A stretch of DNA of 64,000 nt from Nereocystis luetkeana (lineage: Eukaryota; Sar; Phaeophyceae; Laminariales; Laminariaceae): contig JARUPZ010000019.1 of the NCBI GenBank assembly GCA_031213475.1, positions 7,780,698 to 7,844,697 of the forward strand. Reading direction: 5' to 3'. Numbering within the stretch: position 1 is the stretch's first letter; every line of letters begins with the position of its first letter. Positions 3,401 to 62,493 of the stretch are shown here, piece by piece. Made by a program: the position numbers and the translations under genes. The notes beneath the pieces are model-generated. The model was given only the letters and a program-made list of their open reading frames with translations, was not told where the DNA came from and made no database searches.

Positions 3401-6400
3401 CGTGTGCGGTTGGTGCGGCATGTGGCGGCGACGGCGGCGGCGGGGGGAGGGGGTTGAAGGGAGGACATAAGCGGTTGCGTCTCGGGTGTGTATAATATGT
3501 CGTGCGTCGTGGCGTGGTGTGCCCAGCTTTGGAAGCCTCATGGTATGGTATGGTATGGTATGGTATTGTGGCGTGTTGTGGTGTCGCTACTGCTATTCGC
3601 TGTTGCTGTAGCTCCGCTTTTGAGCTCCCCAGCGCCATACCGTGCGTTTTCACATTTTTCGTTGCTGCATTAGACCACTCTAGTATATCGAGTCCTGCAG
3701 TATGGTTTTCTGTTCGTTGTTATGGGCAAAGCTGGCGGCGCTGCCATCTCGGTTTGCTCTCGCCCGAAGACCTACAAGCCCTCCAGACGGCATACTCGGG
3801 CCCGCGGCTTTGCTAACTTTGCCTACGCCTACTGCTTGCTGTCTACCAGGTATGCAGTTCGCGGTTTTTTATGTACCTGGTAGTCTACTGGACGTGTCTG
3901 CACCAGGCCGAGCAGCTGCCACACCGCCGCAGTTGACCGCATTCACCATGTGCGAGCGCTTCATTCCTATTCTACCTACGAGGACATTGCTTGTTTGCAG
4001 ATGACACGAGCCTCTAGGTTACTAGACCCACCAACCGAAGCCATCACGCAAGAATTTGTGTCTACCCATGAAGACGGCGACTGTCACGAACGAGCGACGA
4101 AACATCCAAGACGAAACACAAAAACGAGTTCCATCTCTCATCGGATCAGCCCCACCCCGAATTCCCTGCGCCAATGGTTCCTTGTAGACGCGTTCAGCAG
4201 CAAACTAAGACACCTTTGCGTGTCGAAAGGGCAACGTATTCCATAATGGAACAAGGACAAAAACACCAATAACGCCACCATCACCACGAACCACGAGCAT
4301 CAACAACACCAAAAATACCATCGAGACGATCAAAAACCACCACCGTGGAGAACACCCACACCAACACCACCAACATCAACAAAAAAAACACTTACACCCA
4401 ACACCAACAAAACGAAATACTATGTAACACCACCAACAACAGAAACAAAAGCGACAAAAACGAACGCTACCTTTGCGGTCAAACGTGCTCTCAGATTCGG
4501 CCGCCTCCATCACGGCTGCCAGGTTCGCCTTCAAGCCCTGCAGCTTCCCCACCTCCACCTTAATGGCTTCCGCCGCCGCTCCTTCCTGTCCCCGCGCCAA
4601 CGCAAGCCGCCGTCCACGACACGACAGCACCCACCGCCCAGCAGCAGCAGCAACAGCAACAACAACGAAAATGACAACGCACGATATGGGAGGGTGGCAC
4701 ATGTGCAGCCATAGCAGTGCGTGCGGTCAATGGTGGCTTTGCCCCTGCGGCATCGCCTGAAGCGAACCGCAGAGCGCCATCCACGGGACGAAGCGTTTCG
4801 GGCAGATGCAGGGGGTCCTCCCAGCGCCGGCGGAACGACTGGCATTGTCCTTCTCAGAAGGCCTGTTGCGTTTGAACTAAAAAGTCATCCGCCTCTGCAC
4901 TTATCTCCCTCCATGTGGAGGCCTGCTGTGCTTTTTGATTACCAGGTATGTTGCAATGACTTCATCTTTCAAGCACTACACACACATTTTTGGGGACAGG
5001 CTACATGAAAATACTCGTGATATTAGTGTGTGGTAGTTTTTGCACTCCCAGAACAACGGACGCCGCTTAAAGTACGGCGAATAGCCTGTCAAAGGACAGC
5101 GCACTGTCAATAGCCGCGCTGCTGATACCCAGACTTTGTGTGACCACGGGCTGTAAATAGTAGATGGTACTATTAATAATAGGAGAATAAGCCAATGTGA
5201 GAATATACCATCAATCTCACCATAAATCATCATTGCCATCATCAACATCACCATCATCACCACCATCACCACCACCACCACCAACGCTACCACCATTTCC
5301 AACACGAACATCAATACCCCCAACAACAACACCACAGCACTACCTCCACCATCACCCACCACCATCACCCACCACCACCACCACCACCACCACCACCACC
5401 ACTACCTTCAAAGTATTTGTTTTCGTTGGGGTGGGACAGCGACGCACCTTCTTCATCTCCCTGACGAGCGACCCCTGTTTCGTCACCGCCGCCGCCAGCC
5501 CGTCGGCATCCAAGCCGCCACCGCCGGGTGTCCCCTCGGGAATCGCGACAGCCTTTCACGACCGGGAGAGCGGGGCGGGCGAGTACAATCATAAAACTTG
5601 TTAGCGCGTGGGAGCAGCCAATAGCAGCTACGACGGGTGAAACAGCTAGAAGGGGACGTACGTGCATGGTATGACACTACAGTACGGTATTATTCACGAT
5701 ACGACATGAAAATACGTGATGGGTGGTGGGTTGCTCGTACCTGGTGTTTGCGTGTACGTAAGGTATTTCAATTCCGAGAGAGCAAAGCGGTGCGCCACGT
5801 GATCTCGGCTCAACGTTCATCACACCCCTGCTGTAGTGTGGATGGACTCGTTTCGACGCAGAAGCTTCGCACAACGTCACCGTGACAAACAAAACCGCAC
5901 GCGCCGCGAACCCTCCCAGTATCGAACAACTGCAAACGAAAACACAGCAGTATTGGACAAGCTGGATTGGCCCTGGGGGTTGGTTCTGGGCCCCAGCTTC
6001 GACTATATAGTAGGTACATCATGTACCGCATCCGCCAACTCCATGTGTAATCATATTTCCCGGGGATGGCTTTGATCGACAACTTATTGGCCAACAGCCT
6101 GCGAAAGCGGAGAAGGCGGGTACGGAAATTCAGCCTGAAGCAGCAGCGTTTGGTTTGCCGATGCCACAAGGATCAGCCTGGGCTGGGTAGGGGGGTTGCG
6201 AGCAGCAACAAAAGGCAGATATCAAGATATAGGGTGAGTGGGCGTCAGGATGAGCGGGCGCCCTTCCGCTAGTCTTAGCGACGCTTGTGAGCTCGCACTT
6301 TCCGCGCCGAAGTGTGGCATCGCCGCAACACAGTAGTTCCCATGGTCGCAGAGCTGCTAAAGGGTGCTCACCCGGTTGCACTTCTCGTACATGCAATCGG

Positions 6401-8211: not shown

Positions 8212-8689
8212 CAAGGTAGCTTTGTCAGGGAGTGCTACTCGTAGCAAGGCCAAAAGTAGCAACGAGAGTGGTGTTTCCTGTCAATTTCCATTTGGTCCAC
8301 GGAAACAGAGGAGTTGCAGAAATATTTCAGCGGCTTTACACAGCGGGGATTATCAACCCCGAACCCCGGGAAAAAAATAAAAAGGAGGATCCAACGCACG
8401 ACGCGGCCCGGGTATCCATGCACAGCGACAGGATGGTCATCCTTCTCAGCGTGAGGTACAGCCCGGAGAGTTCGATAAAAATATCTAGGCAACGACGTTC
8501 GTGGTTAATCCCCGCGCAGGTAGGGTACCCTTTGATTTTTCACGCTCAACGTCCGAAACAACGTGGCGGATCCAGCAGCGGTTTCACCACACACAAGTTG
8601 GGGCAAGGGAGGAGCAGTTCGCCCCCTGGCAGGGGCGCAGGGCGGAAAGGATAACCTCTACATTAAGGCGTCCGAACACCTTATCCGCA

Positions 8690-14310: not shown

Positions 14311-14459
14311 GTCCTTCCGTACTTGTTTCATAGTTTTTCCATGGTTGTTCTCTGGGGCTTCCATGGTGTCGACATGGTGTCGACATGGTGGTGTATGCGT
14401 TTCAGTGGGGCGCCTCAATGATGCTTCCGTGGTGCTTCCACAACGGCATGCACAATACC

Positions 14460-15400: not shown

Positions 15401-15409
15401 CTACTACTA

Positions 15410-15515
15410 TTACGGGCGGCCATAGTAAATAGAACCAAATATTGTTAGTAAAGATAGCCAAAATATATGTTTTTTTATGTGTACCGTAGGTCCTATTTAA
15501 TATGGTCCCCCGTAA
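15410..15515. mobile_element. MITE family 1 copy (TA target duplication)
   Basis: 106 bp with terminal inverted repeats TTACGGGCGGCCATA and TATGGTCCCCCGTAA, flanked by TA at 15408-15409 and 15516-15517. It has no coding capacity. Confidence 0.9.
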
Positions 15516-15518: not shown

Positions 15519-15526
15519 TATTAATA
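15519..15526. repeat. TATTAATA, candidate excision footprint
   Basis: Lies two bases beyond the right TA of the MITE copy at 15410, which suggests the spot was hit more than once. Confidence 0.55.
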
Positions 15527-17349: not shown

Positions 17350-20300
17350 CTTGCCGTAGCGGCGGGCAAGCGGGCGGGCGGGGGGGCGTATTCGTTGTTA
17401 TGCGTGGCCGTAGTCGTATGACCATAGACCCTTTAAAGGGCGGGGGGGGGGGGGTGTACTCGATAGGAGAGATGTAGGGGGGGGGGGGGTCCTTAAGAAA
17501 ACCCTGAGGCAGTGAAAGAAGACTCTATTGCATAGAACAGAATTGTAGAATTCTACATCAGGTGCTCCGTGACTATTCTGGCAAGGAAACAATTACGGTG
17601 AGTAATGAATAAAGCAGGTGCCCAAACTCTCACCTGTGCCTGTAAGCCCTGAGCGGGTACGGGTATAGAAGCTCGTGCCATCTCGGGCCAACTCGCTTGT
17701 CGTAAGGGGCGTGGTCGAAGCCGAGCACAGACCCCACAGGTCCGTGGCTGAGAGCAAGATCAGGTACCTCGATGCCGGCGACGCAAATGGCCGCTCGCCT
17801 AGGCAAAACCCTGCACGAAAATAACGTCCACGTTGACAATCAAAGCCTGACCCGGGGAGGTGTCGGTGCCCACAAGCGAAGCGTGACATTTCTAAGGTGC
17901 CGCTTTTGGTGCCCAATCAAACCAGTGCCAGACACGACGGAGCGAAGCATACTCCGCGTGGGGCACTCAGTTTAAAAAAACTATCGAAGGTGTAGACGAG
18001 TTCGTTTTTTCCAGAGAAAGGCGGTCTATCTCGACAGTTTTGTGTTCCGCGCGACGCCCTGAAGGCCACCAATGGAAGCTAGAGCATGGTGCGGAACAAA
18101 CGTGGCGTCAACGCCATTCCAGCACGTACGTGTGATGTTGGGTTTCCACAAAGAATACAGGATGAAGGACTACAAAACAATGAGACAGATGCCCTCGTGG
18201 GTTTTCTGTGTTTCGACACACTGTGTACGGTAGATACTCTTAACTATCTTGGACACGCGACATGCGTGCTCGCGCCACCCAGCCATACCTGGCACCCGGC
18301 TTGAGCGCGGGGTCGAAAAGCCGACGAAGATACCAGAAGTTCATCGCCTGGTAGAGCACAAGGGATTGCATCTGTGGGGGACCAAGTTCAGAGAAGATCA
18401 CGCGGCACGCCGAGCATGTATGAGCAAGCACTTGGAGAAGGAGGGGCGGGGGGGGGGTGTACTCGATAAGCAGAGATGTACTCGATCTCATGCATGGCCG
18501 TAGTCGTATGACCATAGACCCTCGCATCCCTACAATGCCGGGACGGAGCATGTCGGGTTTTCACCGACCAGGCAGACATTGCTTGCACCAAGCGCGAAGC
18601 GCCGTGAGGTGTCTGGCGAGTCGCATGAAGGGTGAGCTGCATCCTACTAAGAACCGCTTGTGAGGCGGACTTGCATATGGATGACAGCTTCAATGAGTTG
18701 ATCTAATTTCCGGTGTAGGCATTTCCAGAGGCAGCAATGGGAGTACTATGTAACTGCCTCTTGGGTGCCTCACCTTGAACACTACGTGATACGATCATTC
18801 CCACTTGTGCGGAGTAAAGGTTGTTCACCTCGCACAAGCGATCAAACTCGACAAAAAAAAACGGTACCCTGGTTATCTAGCTCACGTAGAGAGCGACATG
18901 TTTTACAGTGTAGTTGCCAACCGACGCCAACACAACCTATATATAATAGGGGGGGGGCAGGGGGGGTGTACTCGATATCATGCATGGCCGTAGTCGTATG
19001 ACCATAGATCCTCGCATCCCTACCATGCCGGCACGAAGCACGTCGGGTTTTCACCGACCACGCAGACATTGCGTGCGCCAAGCGCGAAGCGCCGTGAGGT
19101 GCTCGGCAGTCGCATGAAGGGTGAGCTGCATCCTACTATTAATAATAACCGCTTGTGAGACGGACTTGCACACGAATGCCAGCTTCAATATATCAATTTA
19201 TTTTCCCGTGTGGCCACTTCCAGAGACAGCAATGGGGGTACGATGTAACTGCCTCATGGGTGCCTTACCATAAACACTACCAGTACGCGATGCAATCATT
19301 CCCCTTGTGCGGAGTAAAGGTTCTCCACCCCGCACAAATGATCTATAACTCGATCGCCAGCTATGACCGATCGGGGGGAGGGTAGCGATACGAGACACGA
19401 CGAGAGTGCTTCGCTCCAGGCTCGCCGATGTAAAATTTGAGGTCTGGTGAAAAACAAGTCAGCCGCGTCCGTTTTGTATAAAAAAACTCGCTTATCCTGG
19501 GGAGACAGTCTCGGAGTCTCACCCCTTGAAAATCAAAGGCGAACTTATTTTGTTCGGGGCGTCGCCACCGGACATCGTTTTTTGCGCTTACGCTTTTGCT
19601 GTCCTTTGGCGGCCGTAAAACGAGCCACGTTTGGTTCTTCCTCGGTTTGAAGAGAGGGTTAAAATCTCCGTTGCAAGGGACTTCCTGGTGGGCTACTTGA
19701 GTCACGTGACTAAGCAGCCCAGCAGAGTAGCGTTGTTTCTAACGAACTAAATACGTGCGCGGGTTCAATTTTCGATTCTCGCCGGGAACGCTTTTTTTCA
19801 CGCCGTGGTATATGGGTCCTTCTGACACGAAAGAGAAGTTGGCTGATACTGAGGCCTTGGAGGTTATACGCAATATATACGTACGTAGGTGGCGACGGGT
19901 TCACCTCAGGAATAGCCGAGATTGGAGGATTCGAGCCTCAAAGCACATATTTTGTTCATTAGAAGGAACTGCTACCTGTCGGGCTATGCTACAGTTACGT
20001 GACCCAAGTAGGTTCGCTGGTCATGTACATATGTATGACCAACAAAAGCTGTGCGCGGGTTATAATAAGTTATTGCTAGCAAAGCTTTTTCGTCGATGAA
20101 ATGAAGCTCTTGGAAATGAAGAATGGTGGTTTTTATGTGCTCTTGGAAACTAGAACGTGGCGAAGGGGAGTGCCTCGGAGATCAATGCTGATGAGATCAT
20201 GTGTAACCCAAAAGTGATATTTGGGCAAATGCCAAAATCAGTTATACCTGATCCGTTTGAGCCAAAATCAGGTATATACTAAAGCCAAGTGAAAACGCGC

Positions 20301-36671: not shown

Positions 36672-36679
36672 TATTAATA
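36672..36679. repeat. TATTAATA, candidate excision footprint
   Basis: Flanked AAGTGCAC and GGCTGTTT. No empty partner. Confidence 0.5.
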
Positions 36680-38060: not shown

Positions 38061-38068
38061 TATTAATA
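38061..38068. repeat. TATTAATA, candidate excision footprint
   Basis: Lies in a GTAGTGAG-rich stretch about 290 bases before the transporter start codon. Confidence 0.5.
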
Positions 38069-47600: not shown

Positions 47601-50600
47601 GCACGGACACTGGTTGTGCTGGATGTTGACGGGTAAAAATAACGGTTTAATGTGAAGAACACACACCAGTCATTTTTTTTTTTTTTTTTCTCAACCCATT
47701 CATTATCTTCGCACATCTTCTCTCTCTCCTTCCAACTCGTAACTCAGATCCGGGGTCACATAGCAGGCTCTTCTCCCCCCTTCCCGCTACGGTACGTGCC
47801 TTCATTTTTATCGCGAGAAGATTTCAGCCTTTTCTTCCCTCGTCGACTCGCATCGAATTGTGCCTACCCACGCTGCAAGGCGCTCTCAACAATTGAATCC
47901 TTTTTTATTTTTGCAAATAAAGTCAAAGTCCGACCCACCTGGGGCTCGAACCCAGGACTCAAATAAGTAGAATTCGAGGTTAACCACTTGAACCACCGGG
48001 GCGACCGGCTCTGGTACGTCCGTCAATGATCCGACAGTACCAGTCACTTTGAATGATGACCTACCTTGAAAGCTGCAAATGATTTGTGTACCTGGAGTAC
48101 CAGGTTTAAAGTAACGGAGCATCTGCCTGCCAGTACAGTACCCGGAAAAACACTAATTTCGAGTAGGTAGCTGGGGTATCTGCCGTTACCAGGACGAAAT
48201 GACTGGTACTGCTTGTGGGTGGCGTACTGGAACTTGGACGACCTTGGGAGTTGTGCGTATGCGATCCAACCCCGTTTTTATCGCAACTCTGCCGGACACC
48301 GGGTACCGGGTACGCTCGAAAATAGTTCACGATACGCAACATTATTTTCCCAATGTTTGACTCATACCTACGAACAAGTAGTTTGCCCCTCATCGTCGAA
48401 CATTTCAGTACCTGTTGCCCTGTTGCTGTTGTTGTGGTTGTTGCTGTGTTCGTCCTTTCTACCCAGTAAGTACACCCAGTATATATCCGCCCTGATTCCT
48501 TATCCTAGAGGGATACTCGTACTGATTCTGTGGTCACAGACTGTGAGACAGAGGAAGACCTAAAAATAAAAAATAATCGCAGATTCAAGTGTCAAGCAAG
48601 TAAAATGCCAGCGTACCGGGTACGAGAACACAAGACAAGAAAAATAAGAACAAAAAGACAATGATACCAAAAACAAAAATCTACCTGTTGCCCCACAGGC
48701 AGGAAATATACTTTTCTTTTTTTCATCCTCCGGCGGATTGGTAACAATGAAGCTTGACCCATTTAGAACCGCAGTCCTGTTTTGGTGATAAACTACTTGA
48801 AAATTGAGTGGTTTGTCCCCAAAACGGGACTGCGGTTCCACACTTCCACGTTTTCGTGTCGTGTGTCAGTTTAACATATGGCTCCCGTTGCAACATCAGC
48901 ACAGGCTGCTGTTGCTACTGGCGCTTGGGCACGTTGACCCCACCTGACCCCCGAGAGGGGCAGGTGCGGTGGAGATAGCCACACGGGAGAGTCATCTCTC
49001 CCGGGTAGTGTGGGGCTTGCGCGAGCTCACCCACTAACAAAAACCGAGGCTATGAGGCCTTCCCGCCGGACTTGGTCCAGTTACGATCCACCCTATCTAC
49101 CCGTTGGGGCGTTGGTCCTCAGAAAAGATACTTGGTACTTGGTACGAACTGTTTTCCCAGGCGTCATCTCATGACCGTATCGCGTGTCACCACGGTAATT
49201 TACTCAACCAACGTATGATACGAACGTGGAAGTACTGCTCTCTATTATCGTAAGTAAGAGTATTAATAGTTTACTCCAGATACTGTGTGCGAGTTTGACT
49301 GTTGAGGATTTCAGGCTCGAGGGTTGGACGAAAATAAGAAAAATACACTTCTTGTACTGAAAATAGTCTGGGACACACCCTGCCTCACATAGGATTTCTA
49401 GTCTGGCCACATAAGAGAGATGTTGCGTAGCAACGCCATCTCTTTGTGTCTGGACTACACGTTTTCGTCACGAAGTTGGTAGCGCCGGTCATTGCCAGTC
49501 ACTACTACTGTGCTGTGCTGAGGTTGTTTTTGGTTCCGGAGAAGGGGGGAGAGAGGGCTGTGTCGACTCTTTGTCTGGGAGAGGGGGAGGAGAGTGAGGG
49601 AGAGCAGCGCGTTGTGTGGGTGGTACAGCAGGAGAGAGAGCGAATGGGCCTATCAATAGTAATGGACTTCAAGCAGATGGTTCTTGCCTATCTTCGTAGG
49701 TGCCAGAGGCATGAGCCCTGAGGTGACGGTTGGTCGTTGTGGTCGAATAGGCTGGCCATTTTCGGGTAGAAGGTAGGAGGGTACAATAATCGGGTACCTG
49801 TTGGGGGTTAAGTGGCCAAAATCGAGTATACCCGGCACAAATGTGGCCAGCATCGGGTGGTCGCCCGCGTTGACCAATGGGATGGCGTCCTGGGGTCGTT
49901 GCGGTCACTGAAAGGAACCCGAGTTTGGCCTCAAAGACATCGGATACACCCGATTTTCGCCACTTGTCTTTTTGTTTTGTTCTCTTTATGTTCTTGCTTT
50001 CTGATCCTTCTTGTGTCGTTGTGTTCTCGTATCCGGCACGCTGGCATTTCACTTGCTTGACCCAAGAATTTCCGATTATTTTGGCTTTTGGTGTTATCCT
50101 CTTGTCTCACAATCTGTGACCACAATTAGTACCGTACAGCCGTATCTCTCTAGGATGAGGAATCAGGACGGACACTGGGTGTACCATGTACGAATGAAGC
50201 TGGGTAGAAAGGACGATTTCATGTGTGTGTGAGTGTGTTCTTCACATTAAACCGTTTTTTCTACCCGTCGACATCCAGCACAACCAGTGTCCGTGCCGAT
50301 TCTCCAATCCTAGAAGAGATACAAGTTCTGTGGTCACAACGCTACGCCACAGAGATACTACGTTGCCACGTGTGCAGTATGCACTGCAGTGGGCAATGCA
50401 AAGACAACAAACACCGATCTTGCAGCGTTAAATAATCGACACGGACAATGGTTGTGCTGGATGTCGACGGGTGGAAAGAACGGTTTAATGTCAATTACAC
50501 ACACACATATTGTGTGTAGAGCTCACGCGATTGAGCAGCTGTACGTGGCTTTTCTGTAAAAGTCTATTGCTGCTGTAGTATCGTACCCCTCGAAACTACA

Positions 50601-53600
50601 CGTTGCGAGAGCATCGAAATGACCGTCCGTAAACGGCGGCTCCTTTGTTGCGGAGATCGTGGCGCGGGAAAGCAAGGAGCGATTTCTCGGTCGGGTAGTA
50701 TCCGGGACGATGGCTGGTGGGGAGAAATCGAGACCTGACCTGGCGGACAGCAGTGTAAGAGTTGGCATATCGATGCAATGGTCGGAGATCCTGGGGAGTT
50801 CAGCGCCATCGAGGAATCAAGGAAACACTCCCCCTTGATGTTTGGAGTTCAGACCGCCCTGTGATACACTGCAGGACGAAAGGCAGGGAAGCGGTACCGG
50901 GGGGTCCTCGCAGCAGCCGAACGATTCGTGAAGGTGGCACGAGGATGAGGCACAGCGGAGCAAGCAGCACCGTCCGCTGTGGGTGGTATCCAAGGGAATG
51001 GGGGGGGGGGGGGGGGGGGGCTACAGGAGGAGTGGAAGGAAACACGACCGAAGGAATGGGCGCAGGGGGGGCAACAGGAGGAAACCGCGATGCACGAAAG
51101 TAGGAAGGACACGGCAGATAGGGTAGCGAGGCCACGGGCGATTTTCACAGCTGGGTTTATCGACAACGGGGATGGCGTTCTGAGTACGAGGAGGGATTCA
51201 GCAGTACATGCAACCTTCTCGACGAAATATTTCCAAAGCCACCATTTTCGTCGTGTGTGCCCCTTAAGGCATGTTTTCGAGGGAACCGGGTCTGAAATGT
51301 GTCCAAAGGGATGTGTTCTCTTATCACCCAGTGTGATAGTGTCATACGGCAGTAAGTGGAACACGTCTGAGCTACTCATACCTCCAACTGCCGCAGCTGG
51401 ATCGAACATGATTTTTCACTTGTTTTTCGCTCTTCTTTTTGCGCTTCGATCCTCCCTCGTATTTCCTTTTTGTTAGGACTTGTGAGTTGTTTGACTATTA
51501 ACAATAGTCGCCAGCTAGTTATTAGTTGGCTGGGTATTGTAGTTGGTTGCGTCGGTGCCAACTATCCAACCTTTTTCCGCAGTTGGGTTTCCTTGATTGT
51601 AGGAGTTTAGTACGGGGCACGTATTCCCGGCGTCTCCAAGTAGTACTACCACGCTGCGAGCACACAGAGAGAGGTCTTCTGCAACTCATGACGCACCGAC
51701 CCATCGCCATCGACTGTGCCGGTACCGATGGCAGGGCCAAAAGTGCCGGCAGCGCTCAAACTGGTCTGTCAACAGACCGAGTGAGTGTTGGAGCATCTGT
51801 CGAGCAAGGGGCCGTTCCGAGCGCTCCTCCGCGGCCGAGTGCGCGCGACAAGGCAGCGGTTCGCTACCGCGTAGAGAAAGAGCGCTGGCTTCCCAAGCCC
51901 CCCCCCCAATTCCAGCACTGGGTGTGGAAGTTCTTGAGTGTGTACATGAAGGAGGCACTATTAATAGTCAACATCGTTGTTTGCCGTATTTTGCGAGGCT
52001 AACGTGCTTAGATGCTCCTGTCGTAGAAGGGGCCCCCGTCTGTTTTCCATGTTGTATTTTTGTGTCGTTTTACTGGTGGTGTGCTACTTTCGTGCCGCAC
52101 GAATATGCTGTTTACCCTTCACAACAACGAAAGCGACCCTCAAGCCGTGAGGGCATGTCCATATTTATGGAGCGCGGATGCCTATAAAATCTGAAAAACT
52201 GAGACGGACTCAATATGCCTTACTCGCAGGGAGGGAGAAAACAGGAAAACGACTGCGATTTTTTTCAATAGACACACCACCCCCGCAGAGTTCGGAATGG
52301 GAAACCGTTGCAACCATTAGGGCTACATGATGAATTAAGGAAGACAAAAAAAAACGATCCTTTATTTTCATTTTTTTTTCCACGTGGTTCTAGTAACCTC
52401 CCACCGCCCATGCTGTAAAGAACCTTTCCTCCGCACGGGGGGGGGGCACGACAGATTGTTTCTTCTAGTTTTTTCTTCTTCTCTTTCGATTTGCCTTCTT
52501 TGTTTTCGTTTTCTCTTTGGTTGTTTCCTTTCGTTTCTCTATTTCATAGAATGTGTATGTCGTGTCTGTCGTATGTGTGTGTGTGTTTTCACATTAAACC
52601 GTTCTTTCTACCCGTCAACATCCAGCACAACCAGTGTCCGTGCCGATTCTCCAATCCTAGAAGAGATACACATGTACAAGTTCTGTGGTCACAAAGCTAC
52701 GCCACAGAGATGCTACGTTGCCACGTGTGCAGTATGCACTGCAGTGGGCAATGCAAAGCCATGTCACCATACTAGATACGACAGGCACGACATACGCAAT
52801 CTATGAAATAGTGAAACGAAAAGAAACAATCAAAGAGAAAACAAAAAACAAAGTACGAGTAGACAAATCGAAAGAGAAAAAAAAAAAAAAAAAAATGAAA
52901 GCAAAAACTAGAAGAAACAATCTGTCGTGCCCCCCCCCCGCAGGCGAGGTGGCCAACACTTGAAAAAGAACGAGCTGGAAAAAAAAATAATAATAGTAAT
53001 AATAACCAAAAACACCACTGCTTGTAAACAGAGTAAGACAAAGAACCAAGGAAAAATAACAAAGGGGAAAAAACAGGCAGACCACCAAAGCCCAATGCCG
53101 GTCCGGCTGGTGGCCTGCTCGCTTTAAGGACCGCGTGGGGTGGTGGGGATGCTTTTTATTCTTAACCCCGACGCCGAGGACTTCATCCCTCAGGCGGGAC
53201 GGGTACATCCCCACAGCAGAGAGCGCTACGTGGGCAGCCGGTGGAGTGGAGAGGCTGGCCACAGCGTGGGTATGCATGCACGACAGGAAGGATGGGATTG
53301 TCGGCGTGGGTTGGGACGGCTGCACCCAGCCAACGGAAACCAAGGCGCGTACCGGGCTACGAAACGGAGAGCCACTTTCGCCATAGAGGAGAAAAAGAAA
53401 AAAAAAAAAAAAAGAAGGCGGGGACGAGCCTCACGTCGGCTGGCAAAGAAAGCAGCACGCGAGGCCCGTACGAGACAGAAGGAGGCACTTGTGGCGGTAG
53501 CGACCTACAATGTGCGCACCCTGGCTGTAAAGGGGAAGAACGGGTACGGAAATGACGAGCGTGTACTGGCGAAGGGACGGCAACTCGGCTGTGACTTCAT

Positions 53601-56600
53601 TGGCCTGCAGGAAACTCGGAGGTCCGGCAGCACGACGTTCCGTGCGGCAGGGTATCGTGTTTTCTGTTCAGGACAGGAAACATCAGCCACCAGGCAAGGG
53701 CTGTACGGAGTAGGCCTAGCTGTCAAGGAATCGTTGTGCAGTAAGTCTGTGTATACTCGTCAGTTCGTTGACGAGCGGCTAATGTCTATGCGCTTTGAGC
53801 TGGCTGGCAAATGCGAGGCAGTCAATTTCGTCGTTGCGTATGCTCCAACTGATTGTACCAAGGACGCCGAACTGAAACGTACTTTCTGGCAGAAGCTGGA
53901 GTCCTTGGTGGAAAAATCCCGACGAAAGAGTGTCTGTTTGTACTGATGGATGCCAACGCGCGAACTGGACAGAGGGAGGAAAGGTGCGGGGATGATGAAA
54001 GCAGAGTGCTGGGAGCGTATGGACGTGATGTTCGTAACGATAATGGCAGACGGCTCCTGTCGTTCGCCACCAATTGCAAGTTAGCTCTCACCAACACGTT
54101 TTTCAGCACGCGCAAGGATGGGATATCGCATACTCACAACGGCACCGGCCCGAATGACCGTAAGCGGATTGACTACATCCTAACCCGTCAAGTCCATCGA
54201 CCTAGAGTACAAGATGCGAAAGTCGTCCCACAGCCTCCTGCCCCAGCTAAGGCTGACTCAGACCACAACATCTTGTATATCAAAGTCCGACTCGGTGGTC
54301 ATTTTGCGCCCAACAGACAAATACGTAGACCGACGAAACGCCGAGAGTTCGACAGGCAGCTTTTTATGTCCGATGGAAAGTGTCGTGAACGAGTAGTCTC
54401 CAGGGTCATCTCCACTCTCAACCAGCCTATCCAGCCCCGTAATACGTCTGGTATGGTTGAGTTTTTCACTACGGCTGTTATTGATGCGGTCGAAAAAGAG
54501 GTACCACCCCTGCACGTCGCCACCGCAGACATGGATGGTGTGAGTCTGCCGAAACCTTGGCCGCATTCATACCAGCATGGACAGCGAGGGAGGATGCACG
54601 ACAATTCTTGCGTGCCCACCCCCGGGACAGAACCGCGTGGAAGACCCTGAGATCTGCGTGTGCGAACCTGCAGAAGGTGATTGCCGCAGGACTGCATGCG
54701 TACTTCGAAGCGTACCTTGCCGAAACCGAACGACTCCTAGCGAACAACGACCAGAGAGGCTTTTACAAGCACCTTAAGGGTACGGTAGGATTGGAAGGGA
54801 CTAAAGCGAGGAGCGAACAGTTCATTAGGGACGAGGATGGCACGATCTTACGGGATAAGGTGCGAATTCGTGAACGATGGGCGGGGTTTTACCACAAACT
54901 CTTGAACACGATTTCGCTGAAACTCGATCCCACGATCATCGACCTCTTGCCACCGCGACCGCCTAAACTGTCGCTTAAAGATTAACCATCCATAGACGAG
55001 ATGACAGAAGCACTTAAGGGGATGTCGAATTGGAAAGCTGTCGGACCAGATGGTCTCCCGGTCGAACTCCTAAAAATCGACCACCCGGCATTCGCCCAGT
55101 GCTTTCACAACATCCTTGTCAATGTTTGGTTAACAGGAGAAGTCCCTCAGCAATGGAAAGATGCGATCATCAAGGTCCTTCACAAAAAGAAGGATCGAAC
55201 TGACTGCAACAACTATAGAGGGATTTCGCTTGTTGCCCACGCAGGCAAAGTGTTGTTGAAAATCGTCGCGTCCCGCCTCAGCAACTATTAATACTGCGAG
55301 ACCGAGGAGCTACTCACCGAGGAACAGTGCGGCTTCCGCCCCGCACGATCAACGATTGATATGTTGTTCGTCGTGCGCCGGCTGCAAGAGCTCGGACGAC
55401 AGAGGGAAATCCCCTTATACGTGTGCTTCATCGATCTGCAGAAAGCGTACGACTCTGTCGACCGAGAGCTGTTATGGAAGGTACTCACACGCTTTGGCGT
55501 ACCAACCAAGATGGTGAAAATTATCCGTAATTTCCACGATGGCATGCGGGCTCGCGTGCGTACTGATGACGGCGAGCTCTCGGAATGGTTTGATGTCACG
55601 CAGGGGCTGCGGCAAGGCTGTGTACCATCACCGTTACTGTTCAACGTGTTCTTCGCTGCTGCGTTACACGTCGTACTAGTACGCTTCAGCCAAGACGAAG
55701 CCATTGTAAGGGATTTGGTCCAACTCAGTGAAGCTGGAGTAGTTCGAACAGGGAAGGAGGAGCCATTGGCGTGCGTGCGAAGGTCTGTATGGGGCATGTT
55801 GTACGCCGATGATGCAGGAATTGTCTCGAAGTCGGCTGAAGGGCTCGCAAAAATGATGACAGTCATCCCGTGACTGTCTTCGAAGCAGCAGGCCTCACGG
55901 TGTCGGAAAAGAAGACAGAGACAATGGTCCTACAAACACCAGACCGGACAACCCTCGCACCACCGCTCGTCATCGAAGCGGCAGGTCAGAGGTATAAGCA
56001 GACGACCCAGTTCTTATACCTAGGCGGCGTTATCCACGAAAACGCTGCGCTCTCGCTCGAAATCGACCGACGGATCCGCCTCATGCGAGCATGCCTCAAA
56101 CGGTTCGGCCCGGAGTTGTATGATAGGACGACCGCCCCCCTTAGCCTTAAAGTCCGAATGCTGAAGGCCGAGGTGATTGAGACCCTGCTGTACGGGTGTG
56201 TGACGTGGACCCTCAGAGCGGAACACTTTGCCAAGCTTCGAACGGCTCACCACCAAGTCCTGCTGCGAGTCATTGGCTTCCAGCGCCGACTTCGTACTGA
56301 CCATGCCACCCTCTCGTACGCGAAGGCCCTCAAGATGACACGTTGCGAGAGCATCGAAACGACCATTCGTAAACGGCGACTCTTCTTTGCGGGGGGCGTG
56401 GCACGGCAAAGCAAGGAGCGGTTACCCAGTCGGGTAATGTTCGGGACGATAGCTGGTGGGGAGAACCCGAGACCAGGCGGACAGTGTAAGACTTGGCACA
56501 GATGCATAGTCGAAGACCTTAGGGAGTTCCGAGCCACCGAAGGGTCAACGGAAGCTGCCCCCTTGGTGTTTGGAGTTGAGACCGCGTTGTGGTCCACTGC

Positions 56601-59600
56601 AGCCAAAAAGGCGGGGAAGTGGTACCGGGGGATCCTTGAAGCAGCCGAACGGTTCATGATGAGGTGGCACGAGGCTGAGGCTGAGATGAGTAGGCAGCGC
56701 CGCGCATCCGCCGTGGATGGTGCCCAAGGGAACGGGGGGGGAGGGGGCAACAGGAGAAGTGGCAGAAAGCCCGACCAAGGGAATGCGGAGAGGGGGGGGA
56801 ACAGGAGGGGTAGAAGGGAAACGGCGGTAGACGAAAGTAGGAAGGAGATGGCAGACAGGGTAGCAAGGCACCAAGTCGACTAGGAAGTAGAACATGACCA
56901 TACTACTAGTGCTACCAACTGGTGCAGCTGGTTCGAACGTGGTCTTCCCTTGGCTTCTCTTTTTGTTTTGTTTTGTTTTTCTTTCTTGCGCTGACTCTCC
57001 GTGATTTTCATAAAAAAAAATTCTCTTCCTCTTCCTTTTCTGATTGATAAGCCGTACTGAAGGAGCCGTGTGGCGTGGTTGGATGACGAAGCTGCTCTGC
57101 TCGTTTCGTACTGTCTGACGCCAAGGGGCTGGGCATAGTTGACGAACGCAGGGCGGAGACGGCAGTCTGGGTAGCAAGGTACCAGGCGGATTAGCAGGGG
57201 GAACCTGGCTATACTACTCGTACCACAAACTGCTGCCGCCACCTGGAAGGTGCTTTGGGCTTTGGTCTGCCTGTTATTTCCCCTTTGTTATTTTTCCTTG
57301 GTTCTTTGTCTTACTCTGATTACAAGCAGTGGTGTTTTTTCTTATTTTATTTTATTTTCTCTCTTTTCTCCAGCTCGTTTTTTTTCAAGTGTTGGCCACC
57401 TCGCCTGCGGGGGGAGTCACGACAGATTGTTTCTCCTAGATTTTGCTTTCATTGTTTTTTTTTCTTTTTCTCTTTCGATTTGTCTACCTTGTTTTTGTTT
57501 CCTCTTTGATTGTTTCTTTTCGTTTCACTATTTCATAGATTGCGTATGTCGTGCCTGTCGTATCTAGTATGATGACCTGGCTTTGCATTGCCCACTGCAG
57601 TGCACACTGCACACGTGGCAACGTAGTGTGTCTTTGTGGCGTAGCTTTGTGACCACAGAACTTGTATCTCTTCTAGGATTGAAGAATCGGCACGGACACT
57701 GGTTGTGCTGGATGTCGACGGGTAGAAAGAACGGTTTAATGTGAAGAACACACACACACATACGCGGGAAAAAAACAAGTATAATTAGCACATGGTTGCT
57801 CGCGAAGAAGCGCCTGCCCACATATTGATCGACTTTGTATTGCCGAACTACTATTAATACTGAACCAGGTACCTGGTGTGTGTGTCTGTTCTTCACATTA
57901 AACCGTTCTTTCTACCCGTCGCGTCGATATCCAGCACAACCAGTGTCCGTGCCGATTCTTCAATCCTAGAAGAGATACAAGTTCTGTGGTCACAAGGCTA
58001 CGCCACAGAGATACTACGTTGCCACGTGTGCAGTGTGCACTGCAGTGGGCAATGCAAAGCCAGGTCATCATTCTAATACGACAGGCACGACATACGCAAT
58101 CTATGAAATAGTGAAACGAAAAGAAACAATCAAAGAGAAAACAAAAACAAGGTAGACAAATCTGAAGAGAAAAAGAAAAAAATGAAAGCAAAATCTAGGA
58201 GAAACAATCTGTCGTGCCCCCCCCCCGCAGGCGAGGTGGCCAACACTTGAAAAAGAACGAGCTGGAGAAAAGAGAGAAAAAAAATAAAATAAGAGAAAAC
58301 ACCACTGCTTGTAAACAGAGTAAGACAAAGAACCAAGGGAAAATAACGAAGGGGAAATAACAGGCAGACCAAAGCCCAAAGCACCTTCCAGGTGGCGGCA
58401 GCAGCTTGTGGTACGAGTAGTATAGCCAGGTTCTCCCTGCTAATCCGCCTGGTACCTTGCTACCCAGACTGCCGTCTCCGCCCTGCGTTCGTCAACTATG
58501 CCCAGCCCCTTGGCGTCAGACAATACGAAACGAGCAGAGCAGGTTCGTCTTCCAACCACGCCACACGGCTCCTTCAGTACGGCTTATCAATCAGAAAAGG
58601 AAGAGAAGAAAAAAATGAAAATATGTTGTAGCTATTGCGAAACAGAAACGGGTACGAAAAAAGAACGGTTTGACCTTTACAGGACTGCAGTCCCGTTTGG
58701 GGGACAGACTACTTGAAATTTGAACGGTTTGTCTCTTAAACGGGACTACAGTTCTAAAAGGGTTGATGCCCCTAACTCGGTAGGGACCCAACGCCAGCAT
58801 TGCTTCACATCCGCCTATTTATATATAGACAGACTCGCAAAAGCGCAGAAGCCGGAAAGTTTCGCCTACTTTGGGTCCGACCTCCGACACTCACCTACAG
58901 CATTAAGTTTCGCCTAACTGAAAATACGACCGATACGCACGTACCTAAGTTGTGTCGAGCATTAGGTATGACCTCCGATACTCACCTACCGGTACGTTAC
59001 GGGTACGTTAGTTTTTTTGTTTTTTTTTTCTCATCCCATTCATTATCTTCGCACATCTTCTTCTCTCTCTCCTTCCCACTCGTAACTCAGATCCGGGGTC
59101 ACATAGCAGGCTCTTCTCCCCCCTTCCCGCTATGGTACGTGCCTTCATTTTTATCGCGAGAAGATTTCAGCCTTTTCATCCCTCGTCGACTCGCATCGAA
59201 TTGTGCCTACCCACGCTGCAAGGCGCTCTCAACAATTGAATACGACCTCGAACCCGTACCCAATTATAGGTATACCTTACCTAACACCAGTCTTGGAGTA
59301 TGCTGCTGCTGCTGCGGTGGCATACCAGATACGTAAGCTGACCAGCGACACAAACAGCAGTGTTGCTGCGCTGCTGCTGCTGTGAGGGGAGGGGTAGGGG
59401 TACGCCAGCGGGGGGAGGTCTTCTTTGTGACTTCAAGTGAGGGGCGGAGTCGGTAAGACTGCGTAAATAACGAGACGATGATAAGCGTTACGAAACGATA
59501 ACCGGTCGCCCCGGTGGTTCAAGTGGTTAACCTCGAATTCTACTTGTGTTTGAGTCCTGGGTTCGAGCCCCAGGTGGGTCGGACATTTGACTTTATTTGC

Positions 59601-62493
59601 AAAAATAAAATCAAAAGGATACTCAATTGTTGAGAGCGCCTTGCAACGTGGGTAGGCACAATTCGTTGCGAGTCGACGAGGGAAGAAAAGGCTGAAATCT
59701 TCTCGCGATAAAAATGAAGGCACGTACCGTAGCGGGAAGGGGGGAGAAGAGCCTGCTATGTGACCCCGGATCTGAGTTACGAGTTGGAAGGAGAGAGAGA
59801 AGATGTGCGAAGATAATAAATGGGATGAGCAAAAATAAAAAATAAAAAAACGTAACCAAGTGAGTACCAGAAACGTATCGCGGAGATCTTTTCGCATCGT
59901 GATATTTGCAAGGGTATGTTCGGAAGGGTATATCAATACCCGGAGTATTTTTTGTGGGCGTACCGAATTTACTGAAATGTCGGGTACCAGTATTTGAGGT
60001 CGTACCGAACTTACCGAAGTGTCGGGGTGCCGGTATCGAGTTCGTGCCGAACCTCATTGGAGTGTTCGGTAGGGTATTGCGGGGGTACCGATCACTCCAA
60101 TAAATTTCAGTGGTAGTGTATTGCGGCCGTACCGAGCGCCCCGGCAGGGTTCGGTAGGGTGTTGACCGAAAAAAAAAAAAAACGGTGTACTTTGGTACGT
60201 ATGATACCCTACCATACATGCCCATGGCGTGAAATAGGTGATGAAATGCTGCGCTGGCGCACATTTTGTTCATGGATGTCGTTTTTTTTTACCACGAGCC
60301 ATAGAACTCGTGCGGCTTGTCGCCGCGCCACGAGTTTTGTGCGCCGCACCTTTTTCGCCGCAGGCCAAACCTAATGTGCGGCTTTTGGGTCTTTTTCGCG
60401 GCGATTACTTTCGTACCTGGTACCAGGTACGTGGTTTCGCCGCAATATGTCGGATTGCCACCTGGTTACATGCTTTGTGATCGTCATGTTGTCCTTGTTT
60501 CTGTACAAATAGCATAACATTCTAACCCAGCCGGCGCCAGGTCTGCAAGGGGGTAAAACGAGCGGGTAAGACGCACGTTCAGAGTGTATTGACAAATACC
60601 TGGTACCAGTTACCTGGAACCAGATATAAGTTAGTAAGCCCCCCCCCCATAAGCTGTCATCCACATGCAAGTCCGCCTCATAAGCGGTTCTTAGTAGGAT
60701 GCAGCTCACCCTTCATGCGACTCGCGGGACACCTCACGGCGCTTTGTGCTTGGTGCATGCAATGTCTGCCTGGTCGGTGAAAACCCGACATGCTCCGTCC
60801 CGGCATTGTAGGGATGCGAGGGTCTATGGTCATACGACTACGGCCATGCGTTAGATCGAGTACATCTCTCCTATCGAGTACACTCCCCCCCGGAGGGCGG
60901 CCCTCCGCAGTACATGTACCCTTGGAAGATTGCATAACGTATGATATGATACGATAGGATGTAACATGGTGTCAATTGCACCTCAGGTATTATAGATGCA
61001 TATGCTGCACTCGGAATATGATACCATACGAGATACTTGATACAGCATCTATTAATAGATACCTGGTACCTGGTAGGCACTCTTTACTCGTGGTCGGTAA
61101 AATAACACTCACGGCGCGTTTGGATTTACTCCTCGTTTACAGCGCGCACGGTCAAAATCTCCTAAACTCACAACACCACGTCGCGTGACCCTCGTGTGAC
61201 GGTCGTGAACAGGCCAATGCTCGCGTCGTGGACGCTGAAGAGGAGCCTGGCGACGGCGGCTTTCCCGGCCGCGGTGTACGCCCTGCAGAACTGTCTGTCC
61301 CAGGTGGCCTACGTCAACCTCGACTCCCTCACCTTCAACCTCCTCAATCAGACCAAGACTCTCTTCGCAGCGCTGTGCCTGTACCTCGTGATGGGAAAGA
61401 AGCAGTCGCCCCAGCAGCTCGTCGCCCTCTCCCTTCTGCTCGTGGCGGCCTTGACTCTGAACGCTAGCGGCGAGGGAGGCGGAAATAACGCCTCTTCCTC
61501 AAGCGAAGCAGCAGCCTCAGCAAATGATGGTGGCGCCGCGGCGGGTGGAAATCTTGAAGAGGTGGTAGTGGCGTCGGCGGATTACACGCGGTTTTGGCTC
61601 GGAGTAGTCCCCGTTGTGGGTGCGGCGCTGCTGTCTGGGCTGGCCGGGGCGTTGACCCAGCGCACTCTGCACAAGACCGGCCGTAGCGCGTCCCAGCTGT
61701 CCCTGGAGCTAGCTGTGTACGGCGTCGGAACGCTCCTGCTCACGTCGGGGTACTGGTTTGGCGGGCCGGACGGACTCGGAAAGGAGTGGCGGCGGGATTT
61801 CTTCCGGGGGTGGACACCGTGGACCTGGTTGCCGGTGCTCAGTCAGGCTGCCGGCGGTCTGCTGGTCGGTCAGGTATATGACGGTGCCTTCGTTGTTGTT
61901 GTTTTTTGGGTTTCGACATTTTGGCGGGGCAAGCACTGCAAAATGTATGCCATACAACTTCCAAGTGAGTTTCTTCCAAAAAACGTTTGACACGTGCAGT
62001 TTCTAGAAGGTCAATGCTCAGAGCTGCTCGATTCGACTGTCGGCTCGACCATCGGAGGATCGGGTGGGTGATCGAGCCAATGCGTTGCCACAAGCTTCTG
62101 TGATCAATCGTCTGCCACCCGCGCTTTCGTTGCTTTCAGCGCGGACCACTCTGTATACACCACACATATTTACTTAGCGCAAGACGATTGCCGTTTCAAA
62201 GCATTGCTTGAAGGATGTAGCTTCCGTGGGTCATTCATTGACCTTGCGGTCAGGGATACCCTAGAAGGTCAAGGGACCACTTACTACGAGTACGCAGGTA
62301 TAGGAACATTACTCGACCCTCAACGCCCTTCCCCCGCCCCCCCTCCCTGTCGTGATATGTTCCTATTGGTTCTCAATGCTTTGGATAGGTAACGAAGCAC
62401 GCAGGAAGCGTTAGCAAAGGTTTCGCGTTGATCGGAGGCATCTTCGTGACCGCTGCAGTGCAACGCTTTATGGAGAGATCAGCCCTCACATCG
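38358..62493 (+). CDS. nucleotide-sugar transporter, ROCK1/SLC35A-like (3' partial, 3 exons visible)
   Basis: Membrane antiporter of the Golgi or ER that brings UDP-sugars into the lumen (role by family). Exons are 38358-38608, 61213-61873 and 62389-62493. Exon 1 ends AG in phase 2 and exon 2 begins G, giving NIY-R-PMLASW. Exon 2 ends GGT CAG at GTATAT, and exon 3 starts GTA in phase 0. The joined protein is about 339 residues with hydrophobic segments throughout. Diagnostic blocks are [97 protein letters not shown] Ser/Ala/Gly-rich loop near residues 150-175 is variable. The final transmembrane segment(s) are not found before 64000. Substrate cannot be told from sequence alone. The first intron is about 22.6 kb. 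Confidence 0.92.
39248..39604 (+). mobile_element. tRNA-derived SINE, copy 1
   Basis: Head reads CGCCCCGGTGGTTCAAGTGG with an A-box-like TGGTTCAAGTGGTT and B box GGGTTCGAGCCCC near 39303. The body (AATTGTTGAGAGCGCCTTGC onward) is shared with the other copies, with an A-rich tail. Confidence 0.88.
39687..39800 (-). mobile_element. solo LINE 3' end
   Basis: TGTGTGTGTTCTTCACATTA then the conserved 3'UTR segment. Faces outward, paired with 39830-39957. Confidence 0.85.
39830..39957 (+). mobile_element. solo LINE 3' end, inverted partner
   Basis: Mirror of 39687-39800, ending GGTTTAATGTGAAAAACAC then an (AC)n tail. Confidence 0.85.
40020..40290 (+). repeat. inverted repeat arm, left of LINE copy A
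   Basis: Contains CACTGCCCACAAAGC, GACGCTGCACGTCTGCCGCC and CCTTGGTGCACTCCCGTGAG. It is the reverse complement of sequence at 42745-43010, about 80% identical by eye. Confidence 0.75.
40322..42622 (-). mobile_element. LINE copy A, 5'-truncated, RT broken
   Basis: Minus-strand copy of the element at 53096. It keeps the reverse-transcriptase C-terminal half with YADDAG, the C-terminal domain and the full 3'UTR. A 10-base deletion near 42305 (compare 47425) shifts the frame, and the 5' end breaks at 42622 within the codons for [10 protein letters not shown]. Confidence 0.92.
42745..43010 (-). repeat. inverted repeat arm, right of LINE copy A
   Basis: Partner of 40020-40290. It reads CGTGAAGAAAACGGCGGCAG and TTTTGTGGGCAGTGCAACGC on the plus strand. 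Confidence 0.75.
43020..43445 (-). mobile_element. divergent tRNA-derived SINE
   Basis: Minus-strand head GGTTAACCGGCCTCCCTGGT with B-box-like GGGTTCGAGTTTC. The body has GGTCACAGGTGTCG and GCGTGCGTTCATCTCTATCG, diverged from the other copies. Confidence 0.65.
43445..43543. mobile_element. foldback MITE family 2 copy
   Basis: Arms extend to TTAACCCTTTTAGAACCGCA and its complement GTCTTAAAGGGGGTTAA, the longest version in the window. Confidence 0.9.
43640..44062 (+). pseudogene. divergent LINE C-terminal fragment
   Basis: Frame reads [20 protein letters not shown] and [17 protein letters not shown], like the C-terminus of the main LINE but much diverged. It probably derives from a related older element. 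Confidence 0.8.
44443..44547. mobile_element. MITE family 1 copy, intact ends
   Basis: TA (44441-44442), then TTACGGGGGACCATAGTTAG ... CTATGGCCCCCCGTAA, then TA (44548-44549). It is the clearest copy: 105 bp with perfect TA duplication. Confidence 0.93.
44583..45017 (+). repeat. dispersed repeat R2, copy 1
   Basis: Begins TGGCCAAAATAAAGTATACC and ends at TCTCGAGCCTGAAATTCGTA. The reverse complement is at 49300-49830 with internal rearrangement. Confidence 0.7.
45419..47505 (-). mobile_element. LINE copy B, 5'-truncated, with longest open RT frame
   Basis: Minus-strand copy. The 311-codon frame 47523-46588 covers [16 protein letters not shown] and the C-terminal domain without a break, so it is younger or better kept than copy A. 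The 5' break is at 47505. Confidence 0.92.
45551..45558. repeat. TATTAATA footprint with empty partners
   Basis: Inside the 3'UTR of LINE copy B: CAGAGATAC-TATTAATA-CGTTGCC. Other copies read CAGAGATAC-TA-CGTTGCC (near 50351) and the same without it near 40445 and 58010. Confidence 0.9.
47580..47672 (+). mobile_element. solo LINE 3' end
   Basis: AGAATCGGCACGGACACTGG to GTTTAATGTGAAGAACACAC. Confidence 0.8.
47675..48012 (-). mobile_element. tRNA-derived SINE, copy 2
   Basis: Full-length minus-strand copy, with the tRNA-like head at 47935-48010 and the T-rich tail at its left end. Confidence 0.88.
48762..48840. mobile_element. foldback MITE family 2 copy
   Basis: TTTAGAACCGCAGTCCTGTT ... AACGGGACTGCGGTTCCA. 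Confidence 0.88.
49261..49268. repeat. TATTAATA, candidate excision footprint
   Basis: Flanked GTAAGAG and GTTTACT, just outside repeat R2 copy 2. Confidence 0.5.
49300..49980 (-). repeat. dispersed repeat R2, copy 2
   Basis: Reverse-complement partner of 44583-45017 up to about 49640. A second related unit, 49800-49975, has inverted ends GTGGCCAAAATCGAGTATAC and CGATTTTCGCCAC. Confidence 0.7.
50225..50410 (-). mobile_element. solo LINE 3' end
   Basis: Outward-facing end beginning with a TG run at 50222, paired with 50434-50512. Confidence 0.85.
50434..50512 (+). mobile_element. solo LINE 3' end, inverted partner
   Basis: GACACGGACAATGGTTGTGC to GTTTAATGTCAATTACACAC. Confidence 0.82.
50575..51130 (+). 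pseudogene. diverged LINE C-terminal fragment
   Basis: Matches the LINE at 56330-56870 (CGTTGCGAGAGCATCGAAAT, GGTACCGGGGGGTCCT) with many indels and an expanded G run at 51000. Confidence 0.85.
51180..52380. other. no gene seen
   Basis: Contains only short frames and one TATTAATA. Nothing recognisable on either strand. Confidence 0.5.
51959..51966. repeat. TATTAATA, candidate excision footprint
   Basis: Flanked GAGGCAC and GTCAACA. Confidence 0.5.
52425..52583 (+). mobile_element. LINE 3'UTR fragment, plus orientation
   Basis: Direct relative of 57405-57570. It ends at TATGTGTGTG where the inverted 3' end begins. Confidence 0.75.
52584..53095 (-). mobile_element. inverted LINE 3' end heading the full-length element
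   Basis: Reverse complement of 57250-57760. It stops at AAAGCCCA, exactly where the full-length plus-strand element begins. Confidence 0.9.
53149..56883 (+). pseudogene. LINE polyprotein ORF (endonuclease-RT), disrupted
   Basis: Coding relic of the element at 53096. Frame pieces are 53149-53946, 53853-54650, 54557-54985, 55001-55291, 55361-55873 and 55870-56883, each overlapping or adjoining the next in order. Confidence 0.92.
55286..55293. repeat. TATTAATA footprint creating a stop codon in the LINE RT
   Basis: AGCAAC-TATTAATA-CTGCGAG. Removing six bases restores a continuous reading frame (RLSNY to CETEEL) with no other change. The added bases supply TAA. Confidence 0.85.
57852..57859. 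repeat. TATTAATA, candidate excision footprint
   Basis: In the 120-bp spacer between two LINE 3' ends that face each other. Confidence 0.5.
57885..58615 (-). mobile_element. 5'-truncated LINE copy, 3'UTR only
   Basis: Reverse complement of 57020-57760. Its 3' tail faces the tail of the full-length copy. Confidence 0.9.
58675..58762. mobile_element. foldback MITE family 2 copy, diverged
   Basis: GACTGCAGTCCCGTTTGGGG ... CTTAAACGGGACTACAGTTC. Confidence 0.82.
59013..59241 (-). mobile_element. tRNA-derived SINE, copy 3, truncated
   Basis: Body only; it stops at CTCAACAATTGAAT before the tRNA-like head. Confidence 0.85.
59501..59848 (+). mobile_element. tRNA-derived SINE, copy 4
   Basis: Full copy with head CGCCCCGGTGGTTCAAGTGG, B box GGGTTCGAGCCCC near 59562, and an A-rich tail near 59830. 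Confidence 0.88.
60237..60595. repeat. dispersed repeat, copy 2 (partner at 9895)
   Basis: TGCGCTGGCGCACATTTTGT, CTTTTTCGCCGCAGGC and GGGTAAGACGCACGTTCAGA echo copy 1. It includes two overlapping TACCTGGTA words. Confidence 0.6.
60650..60900 (-). repeat. dispersed repeat R1, reverse copy
   Basis: Reverse complement of 18430-18680 with high similarity, for example GTTTTCACCGACCAGGCAGA read on the minus strand. Confidence 0.85.
61050..61057. repeat. TATTAATA, candidate excision footprint
   Basis: Three bases before two overlapping TACCTGGTA words and about 155 bases before the transporter exon 2 acceptor. Confidence 0.5.
61213..61873 (+). CDS. nucleotide-sugar transporter exon 2
   Basis: Acceptor GTGAACAG then G-CCA-ATG. 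It contains the family signature [13 protein letters not shown] and charged KKQSPQQ, and ends at GLLVGQ before GTATAT. This is the bulk of the carrier. Confidence 0.96.
62389..62493 (+). CDS. nucleotide-sugar transporter exon 3
   Basis: Thirty-five codons, [20 protein letters not shown] then [15 protein letters not shown]. It is preceded by TTGGATAG and followed by GTAAGA. The SVSKGFA block corresponds to the conserved VxKGFA of this family. Confidence 0.92.

Follow-up and report, generated by a model that had tools for sequence, protein, structure and literature searches.

The window, i.e. the whole stretch of 64,000 nucleotides analysed here, is situated on contig 19 of the Nereocystis luetkeana assembly. 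It contains twelve exact copies of the eight-base palindrome TATTAATA, all of them at the coordinates reported by a first-pass annotation. Four copies of a MITE family described in the same annotation (15410, 22447, 24082 and 44443) also proved to be real, with a CA left flank at 22447 and one mutated end at 24082. The features are as follows, the palindromes being given without strand.

5171..5178: TATTAATA, putative excision footprint with AC directly before it; exact match, spanned by no paralog
15410..15515, minus strand: MITE copy of 106 bp with TA on either side
15519..15526: TATTAATA, 3 bp past the right end of a MITE copy; exact match, paralog test unclear
19137..19144: TATTAATA, 6-bp gain at TA compared to paralogs including 18597-18694 and 60651-60744; 9 empty paralogous matches
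20464..20471: TATTAATA, putative footprint; exact match, spanned by no paralog
22447..22551, minus strand: MITE copy of 105 bp, CA replacing TA at the left flank
24082..24186, plus strand: MITE copy of 105 bp with one mutated end
36672..36679: TATTAATA, putative footprint; exact match, spanned by no paralog
38061..38068: TATTAATA within a stretch rich in GTAGTGAG; exact match, spanned by no paralog
44443..44547, plus strand: MITE copy of 105 bp with TA on either side
45551..45558: TATTAATA, aligned to 4 of 5 in-window repeat copies with a clean gap of 6 bp at TA, the fifth being off by 4 bp; 5 empty matches and 1 unclear in the paralog test
49261..49268: TATTAATA, putative footprint; exact match, spanned by no paralog
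51959..51966: TATTAATA in the context AC-TATTAATA-GT; exact match, spanned by no paralog
55286..55293: TATTAATA within a LINE reverse transcriptase, adding two codons including an in-frame TAA; judged by frame and homologue comparison
57852..57859: TATTAATA, putative footprint; exact match, spanned by no paralog
61050..61057: TATTAATA, putative footprint; exact match, spanned by no paralog

The window further harbours a LINE-type element (53140-55873), whose endonuclease and reverse transcriptase domains are encoded in different frames, and an array of ~11-bp units similar to GGAAGCACCAT that extends over more than 1 kb (12942-14319). Reverse transcriptase homologues carrying the name Ectocarpus, together with a 90% match filed under a Luteolibacter MAG, point to a brown algal source. 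A tRNA-Val gene was called at 39253-39326 inside a dispersed repeat, of which an inverted copy exists at 47716-48010; this repeat is possibly a tRNA-derived SINE. Members of a second family of short palindromic repeats, with arms like ACCGCAGTCCCGTTT...AACGGGACTGCGGT, were found at 35122, 35622, 43444, 48753 and 58669.

Abundance of the palindrome

Dinucleotide shuffles of the window gave an expectation of 0.35 copies of TATTAATA and a maximum of 2 in 100 shuffles, compared to the twelve found. Markov models of orders 1 to 5 predicted 0.33, 0.14, 0.60, 1.76 and 4.05 copies, respectively, the high-order values partly including the word's own count. Under the order-2 model, the palindrome showed the highest excess of all 8-base palindromes in the window with 31.2, followed by 8.1 for the runner-up. 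A sample of 264 kb from the same genome, namely, the window and twenty 10-kb pieces at fixed coordinates on contigs 1-20, contained 62 copies against 1.5 expected. The count was extended to the complete assembly of 1987 contigs (465 Mb). Within 465,085,209 bases, 93,112 copies were present, i.e. approximately one per 5 kb, and TATTAATA is thus found beyond the window and the span indicated originally. The reversed control word occurred 10,689 times and was 8.7 times rarer. The proposed genome-wide enrichment was therefore borne out both in the sample and in the assembly.

An artefact of composition or simple repeats would be conceivable as TA-rich simple repeats are common and TATATATA, TAATAATA and TACTACTA were enriched in the 264-kb sample as well. 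It is already contradicted by the rarity of the reversed word and by the fact that 57 of the 62 sites survived simple-repeat masking, and we assign it next to no probability.

Six-base gains at TA in repeats

The paralog test was carried out on the 264-kb sample with 58 TATTAATA sites outside satellites (4 were dropped). The overlapping loci L008 and L009 were left out of this test and were counted in the repeat-pair alignments, the MITE end pairing and the flank-context counts. Twelve of the 58 sites were spanned by a paralog. An empty relative, shorter by 6 bp, was observed for seven of them, five were unclear and none had filled relatives only; two of the seven had a filled relative too. 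Three of the seven are located in a single repeat array (L013), and at L015:7919, also one of the seven, the empty relatives show GA or AA instead of TA. In the window, both in-window paralogs of site 19137 have a plain TA and are shorter by exactly six bases. The first-pass annotation had postulated a 6-base gain at TA and not an ancestral TATTAATA, which was confirmed at 19137 and 45551 and is in agreement with the empty relatives at 7 of 12 spanned sites.

Fifteen control words were subjected to the paralog test. Twelve of them gave no empty relative at 20 spanned sites, although TA bounds only six of these twelve on both sides, with 5 spanned sites. The control words are thus a rather weak comparison. 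The remaining three had empty relatives at 1 of 3 (TAATATTA), 1 of 4 (TACCGGTA) and 3 of 16 (TATATATA) spanned sites. In repeat-pair alignments over 276 kb, TA-edged insertions peaked at lengths of 5, 6, 7 and 8 bp with 7 of 34, 10 of 26, 9 of 25 and 5 of 9 sites, respectively. Other lengths gave 2/69 (3 bp), 4/39 (4 bp), 1/7 (9 bp), 1/15 (10 bp) and 0/16 (11 bp). Among the TA-edged sites of 5-8 bp, four carried TATTAATA, six TACC(A/T)GGTA and five TAC(A/T)GTA.

At 55286, TATTAATA reads Y-stop-Y in the frame of the LINE reverse transcriptase. The two extra codons were present in none of the 20 homologues (out of 120) that matched the site pattern, while P0047 had one extra residue. Because a 6-bp scar is frame-preserving and capable of introducing two residues or a stop, it may change proteins. 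As a perfect and highly enriched palindrome, TATTAATA could also be read as a conserved motif of a promoter or binding site. The empty relatives and the derived 6-bp gain in repeats and in a LINE coding frame contradict such a function, which can practically be dismissed.

The MITE family and its link to the palindrome

The MITE has a length of 105 bp and a perfect terminal inverted repeat (TIR) of 27 bp, TTACGGGGGACCATAGTTAATAGGACC (copy L013:7648-7752), and folds into a hairpin with a 27-bp stem. It starts with TTACGGGGG and ends with CCCCCGTAA, TT and AA being the terminal bases. Like other MITEs with a TA target, it is short and non-coding and has TIRs as well as a TA duplication, the latter in comparison with an empty L013 unit; the 6-bp gains from TA to TATTAATA suggest an excision that leaves TA plus few terminal bases. 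A search for MITE ends over 276 kb yielded 29 end pairs and 20 unpaired ends. Three right ends belong to two pairings each, so the 29 pairs with 58 flanks are a slight overcount, and some of the unpaired ends are due to chance. A second count, made on the 264-kb sample, yielded 29 elements with lengths of 95-120 bp; in 20 of these, TA was present at both flanks. The mean identity of 23 copies to their own majority sequence was 91% (range 83-97%).

The 14-base MITE end TATTACGGGGGACC was found in 35,384 exact copies genome-wide, and its reversed word in none. The 100 listed places included 27 close pairs in opposite orientation, and 17 of these were spaced 95 bp apart, as expected from an element of 105 bp. 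Given that 25 of the 58 ends in the 264-kb sample are exact, this number would correspond to roughly 40,000-50,000 elements, and scars would outnumber elements by approx. 2:1 genome-wide. The first-pass annotation had claimed more footprints than present copies. By this estimate, the excess would hold for the genome, at a ratio nearer to 2:1 than the 12:4 of the window. On C1 between 29550 and 840925, the first 100 listed TATTAATA were accompanied by just 11 of the listed exact MITE ends and, hence, scars and elements do not occur in a constant ratio throughout the genome.

The tandem repeat unit of L013 contains CAGC-TA-GCTGC. TA occupies this position in 13 plus-strand units and TATTAATA in three (8555, 8791 and 8853); another unit carries a full 105-bp MITE at 8401-8505 with TA on either side. 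An alternation between TA, full MITE and TATTAATA, as anticipated for an excision footprint, was thus found at one and the same repeat position (13, 1 and 3 units, respectively). Scars within scars, recognisable as nested TATTAATATTAATA, were located at L013:5772, L027:5208 and L033:3058.

The MITE and the palindrome have a common target context, T-A-C|TA. The bases T, A and C outside TA were counted in 41, 30 and 36 of the 58 MITE flanks and in 56, 76 and 68 of the 124 TATTAATA flanks, compared to background rates of 0.30, 0.30 and 0.21 for any TA. The enrichment had one-sided binomial p values between 4e-4 and 2e-16, with the 58 MITE flanks being slightly overcounted. Most of the other words checked (27 were tested) were without this context. 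It is not wholly private to the MITE and TATTAATA as TACAGTA (C 0.40) and TACGGTA (C 0.36) carry part of it; it was likewise partial for TATCAATA (C 0.39), which is one base off TATTAATA. TATTAAATA, its reverse complement TATTTAATA and TAGTTAATA showed C values of 0.62, 0.62 and 0.44 and resemble the MITE interior. None of the 62 TATTAATA sites was inside the bodies of the 29 elements, and two share their TA with a MITE (L016:5132 and L016:8471). The words TATTATA (3-nt) and TATTTA (one-ended) were considered as further scars of this MITE and are slightly enriched, but they were not attributed to the family because they are without its target context.

Judged by the sequence, TATTAATA is very probably the excision footprint of this abundant cut-and-paste family of 105-bp MITEs with TA duplication. 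The footprint reading put forward in the first-pass annotation is supported by the paralog gains, the alternation in L013 and the enrichment, and was right in substance. Ends, target context and shared position tie the footprint to this particular family in a strong but indirect way. Alternatively, the scars might stem from another TA-specific family with TT...AA ends, e.g. lost autonomous relatives, and not from the TTACGGGGG MITE. This would agree with the partial search that gave no autonomous TTACGGGGG element and with further footprint-like words in the genome that occur without visible elements. In a scan of the sample for TA-flanked inverted repeats, TTACGG was by far the commonest 6-mer start with 34 of 287 pairs, counts that include pairs formed between adjacent MITEs; the remaining TT starts were few or could be traced to the scars (TTAATA, 9 pairs) or to MITE sequence. 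As the T-A-C|TA context is common to TATTAATA and this MITE and the L013 position hosts both, an origin from another family is improbable.

The sequences show the duplicated TA, element ends of TT...AA, a gain of 6 bp at TA, a target context common to MITE and scar, and three states of a single repeat position; the cut geometry, the end-joining repair and a trans-acting transposase, either of the Tc1/mariner or of a pogo-like kind, are what we infer for the excision of the MITE. The element would insert at TA, preferably at T-A-C|TA, with duplication of the TA. At excision, the non-transferred strand of each end would be cut two bases inside the element, i.e. two bases inside each 5' end with TT overhangs on both flanks, and each flank would retain TA plus TT (AA on the opposite side). 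Joining of the untrimmed ends would result in TA-TT-AA-TA, which is 6 bp longer than the empty TA. Tc1-like excision proceeds by cuts two bases inside the 5' ends, and the Tc1 footprint has a 2-nt form. The single dominant scar form suggests a clean end-joining step.

The palindromic MITE could also be deleted during replication through its hairpin, free of any transposase and with two bases left per end. Its 27-bp stem would allow for this, and the instability of palindromes has long been recognised according to the cited part of a Stowaway study (PMC1925063). Slippage should, by our reasoning, favour the TA direct repeat, with restoration of TA, or varied ends, but one form dominates here, and the 3-nt and one-ended words are without the target context of the family. 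Hairpin-mediated deletion is hence judged to be slightly less probable still than an origin from another family.

Microsatellites may serve as landing sites for the MITE. In (TAG)n arrays, 667 of 865 TA-HNNH-TA interruptions were TTAA, while 144 words are possible; the counts are non-independent with several rows per array. A 6-bp gain preserves the 3-base register of (TAG)n and, thus, two substitutions could mimic it. Among the first 100 listed interruptions, 79 were TTAA and the eight remaining two-substitution words together accounted for 13. In (TACG)n arrays, the register rules out plain substitutions. The 100 interruptions listed for (TACG)n (112 in total, many places being counted on both strands) did not include TTAA, and CAG/CTG, CCAG/CTGG, CCAGG/CCTGG and TCA/TGA were listed instead. 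A G adjoining TA is disfavoured in MITE flanks (5 of 58). (TACG)n puts G beside TA and (TAG)n offers the favoured GTA on one side, so the lack of TTAA in (TACG)n fits the target preference of the MITE, albeit by reasoning post hoc.

Transposase search, parallel scar words and known systems

A profile search of the genome gave no matches for PF13358 and 28 for PF03184 (DDE_1). The pair of TTACGGGGG ends around a gene was absent at the six of the 28 DDE_1 loci that were examined (L034-L039, and L040-L045 in wider extracts); one of these extracts (L041) had a separate MITE beside the DDE_1 locus. A transposase gene with TTACGGGGG ends, which the first-pass annotation had suggested looking for, was therefore not recovered in this partial search. 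L032 on C1, with MITE ends 4.4 kb apart, was rejected as an autonomous element since the ends are separate and no long frame between them was recognised as a transposase. An element of 2,608 bp, which we call pogo-like, was found at L042:2554-5161 with a TA duplication, identical G-rich 20-base TIR ends (CAGTGGGGGGCCCTATATAG) and the domains DDE_1 and HTH_Tnp_Tc5. It shares the TA duplication with the MITE and has a run of G with CC and TA behind it, similar to TTACGGGGGACCATA of the MITE. It differs in its start CAG, which fits the scar TAC(A/T)GTA (+5) and not TATTAATA. Given the TTACGGGGGACCATA-like end, one may guess that a related transposase serves the MITE.

TACC(A/T)GGTA was strongly enriched with 87 copies in 264 kb after masking (e.g. 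L013:7236, L013:8828, L027:2013 and L024:5926). In paralogs it corresponds to a 7-bp gain at TA, and it also occurs within (TACG)n arrays. No element with ends of this type was seen in the own-genome sample. It is tentatively proposed that TAC(A/T)GTA (+5), TATTAATA (+6) and TACC(A/T)GGTA (+7) are parallel scar classes, each derived from a different TA-specific family, that TA-anchored transposon scars are a main source of 5-8 bp insertions in this genome and that families, including extinct ones, can be read from word statistics alone. If so, an unusual stagger of five bases and an as yet unseen element would follow for the +7 class. The same word statistics could reveal vanished transposon families in other genomes.

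Footprints of Tc1/mariner elements are in the range of 2-4 bp (PMC7913693, cited part). They are similar to the scars described here in the TA duplication and in TA plus terminal element bases being left. They differ in that one form dominates genome-wide in this alga, where the scars are known from sequence alone and the partial search found no transposase. For Stowaway, the cited passages describe variable footprints of 1-4 bp of the ends, a rice Mariner TIR consensus CTCCCTC and re-insertion at an old footprint (PMC1925063, PMC4423477). As far as described there, grass Stowaway MITEs are likewise short, palindromic and non-autonomous with TA duplications and footprints of terminal bases; in contrast, the family described here has TTACGGGGG ends and a single 6-bp form in tens of thousands of copies. 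PIF/Harbinger elements duplicate 3 bp, TAA/TTA, according to the part cited (PMC4423477), and this identity was rejected as the MITE duplicates the 2 bp TA in comparison with the empty L013 unit. An identity as piggyBac, with its TTAA target and seamless excision in the cited part (PMC7351741), was also rejected since the target here is TA and a 6-bp gain stays.

Among brown algae, Ectocarpus has almost 12,000 Mariner-Tc1 copies in 17 families, mostly non-autonomous MITEs, as stated in the cited part of a transposon survey (PMC12477816). The brown algal host and the non-autonomous majority are common to both cases by description. The words 'footprint' and 'excision' do not occur in the main text of that survey (PMC12477816). 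Among the literature matches listed, which are largely open literature, there was no report of MITE footprints in brown algae, of TATTAATA footprints or of genome-wide footprints. Published Tc1/mariner and Stowaway footprints are few and variable in the passages cited (PMC1925063, PMC4423477, PMC7913693, PMC3660474). Thus, this kind of scar is already known, and its number and uniformity as well as the prospect of reading an excision history from one assembly are new. TATTAATA appears to document excisions of a single element family in their tens of thousands. Subtracting the 10,689 copies of the reversed word from 93,112 leaves on the order of 80,000 identical footprints, seemingly from one family. 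A single assembly would permit measuring how often excision goes unrestored, where it takes place and how the break heals, and the scars could be used as markers in brown algae.

A match among viral contigs (L001) was rejected as a MITE and is apparently due to chance, being a single end without partner and without TATTAATA; a longer MITE word gave no matches in the viral contigs. Two contigs of bacterial MAGs carry the MITE. One of them (L030, 36% GC) has it at its extreme edge together with 2 TATTAATA. The other (L031, 53% GC), which also has 3 TATTAATA within its 8 kb, probably represents algal DNA contaminating a bacterial MAG.
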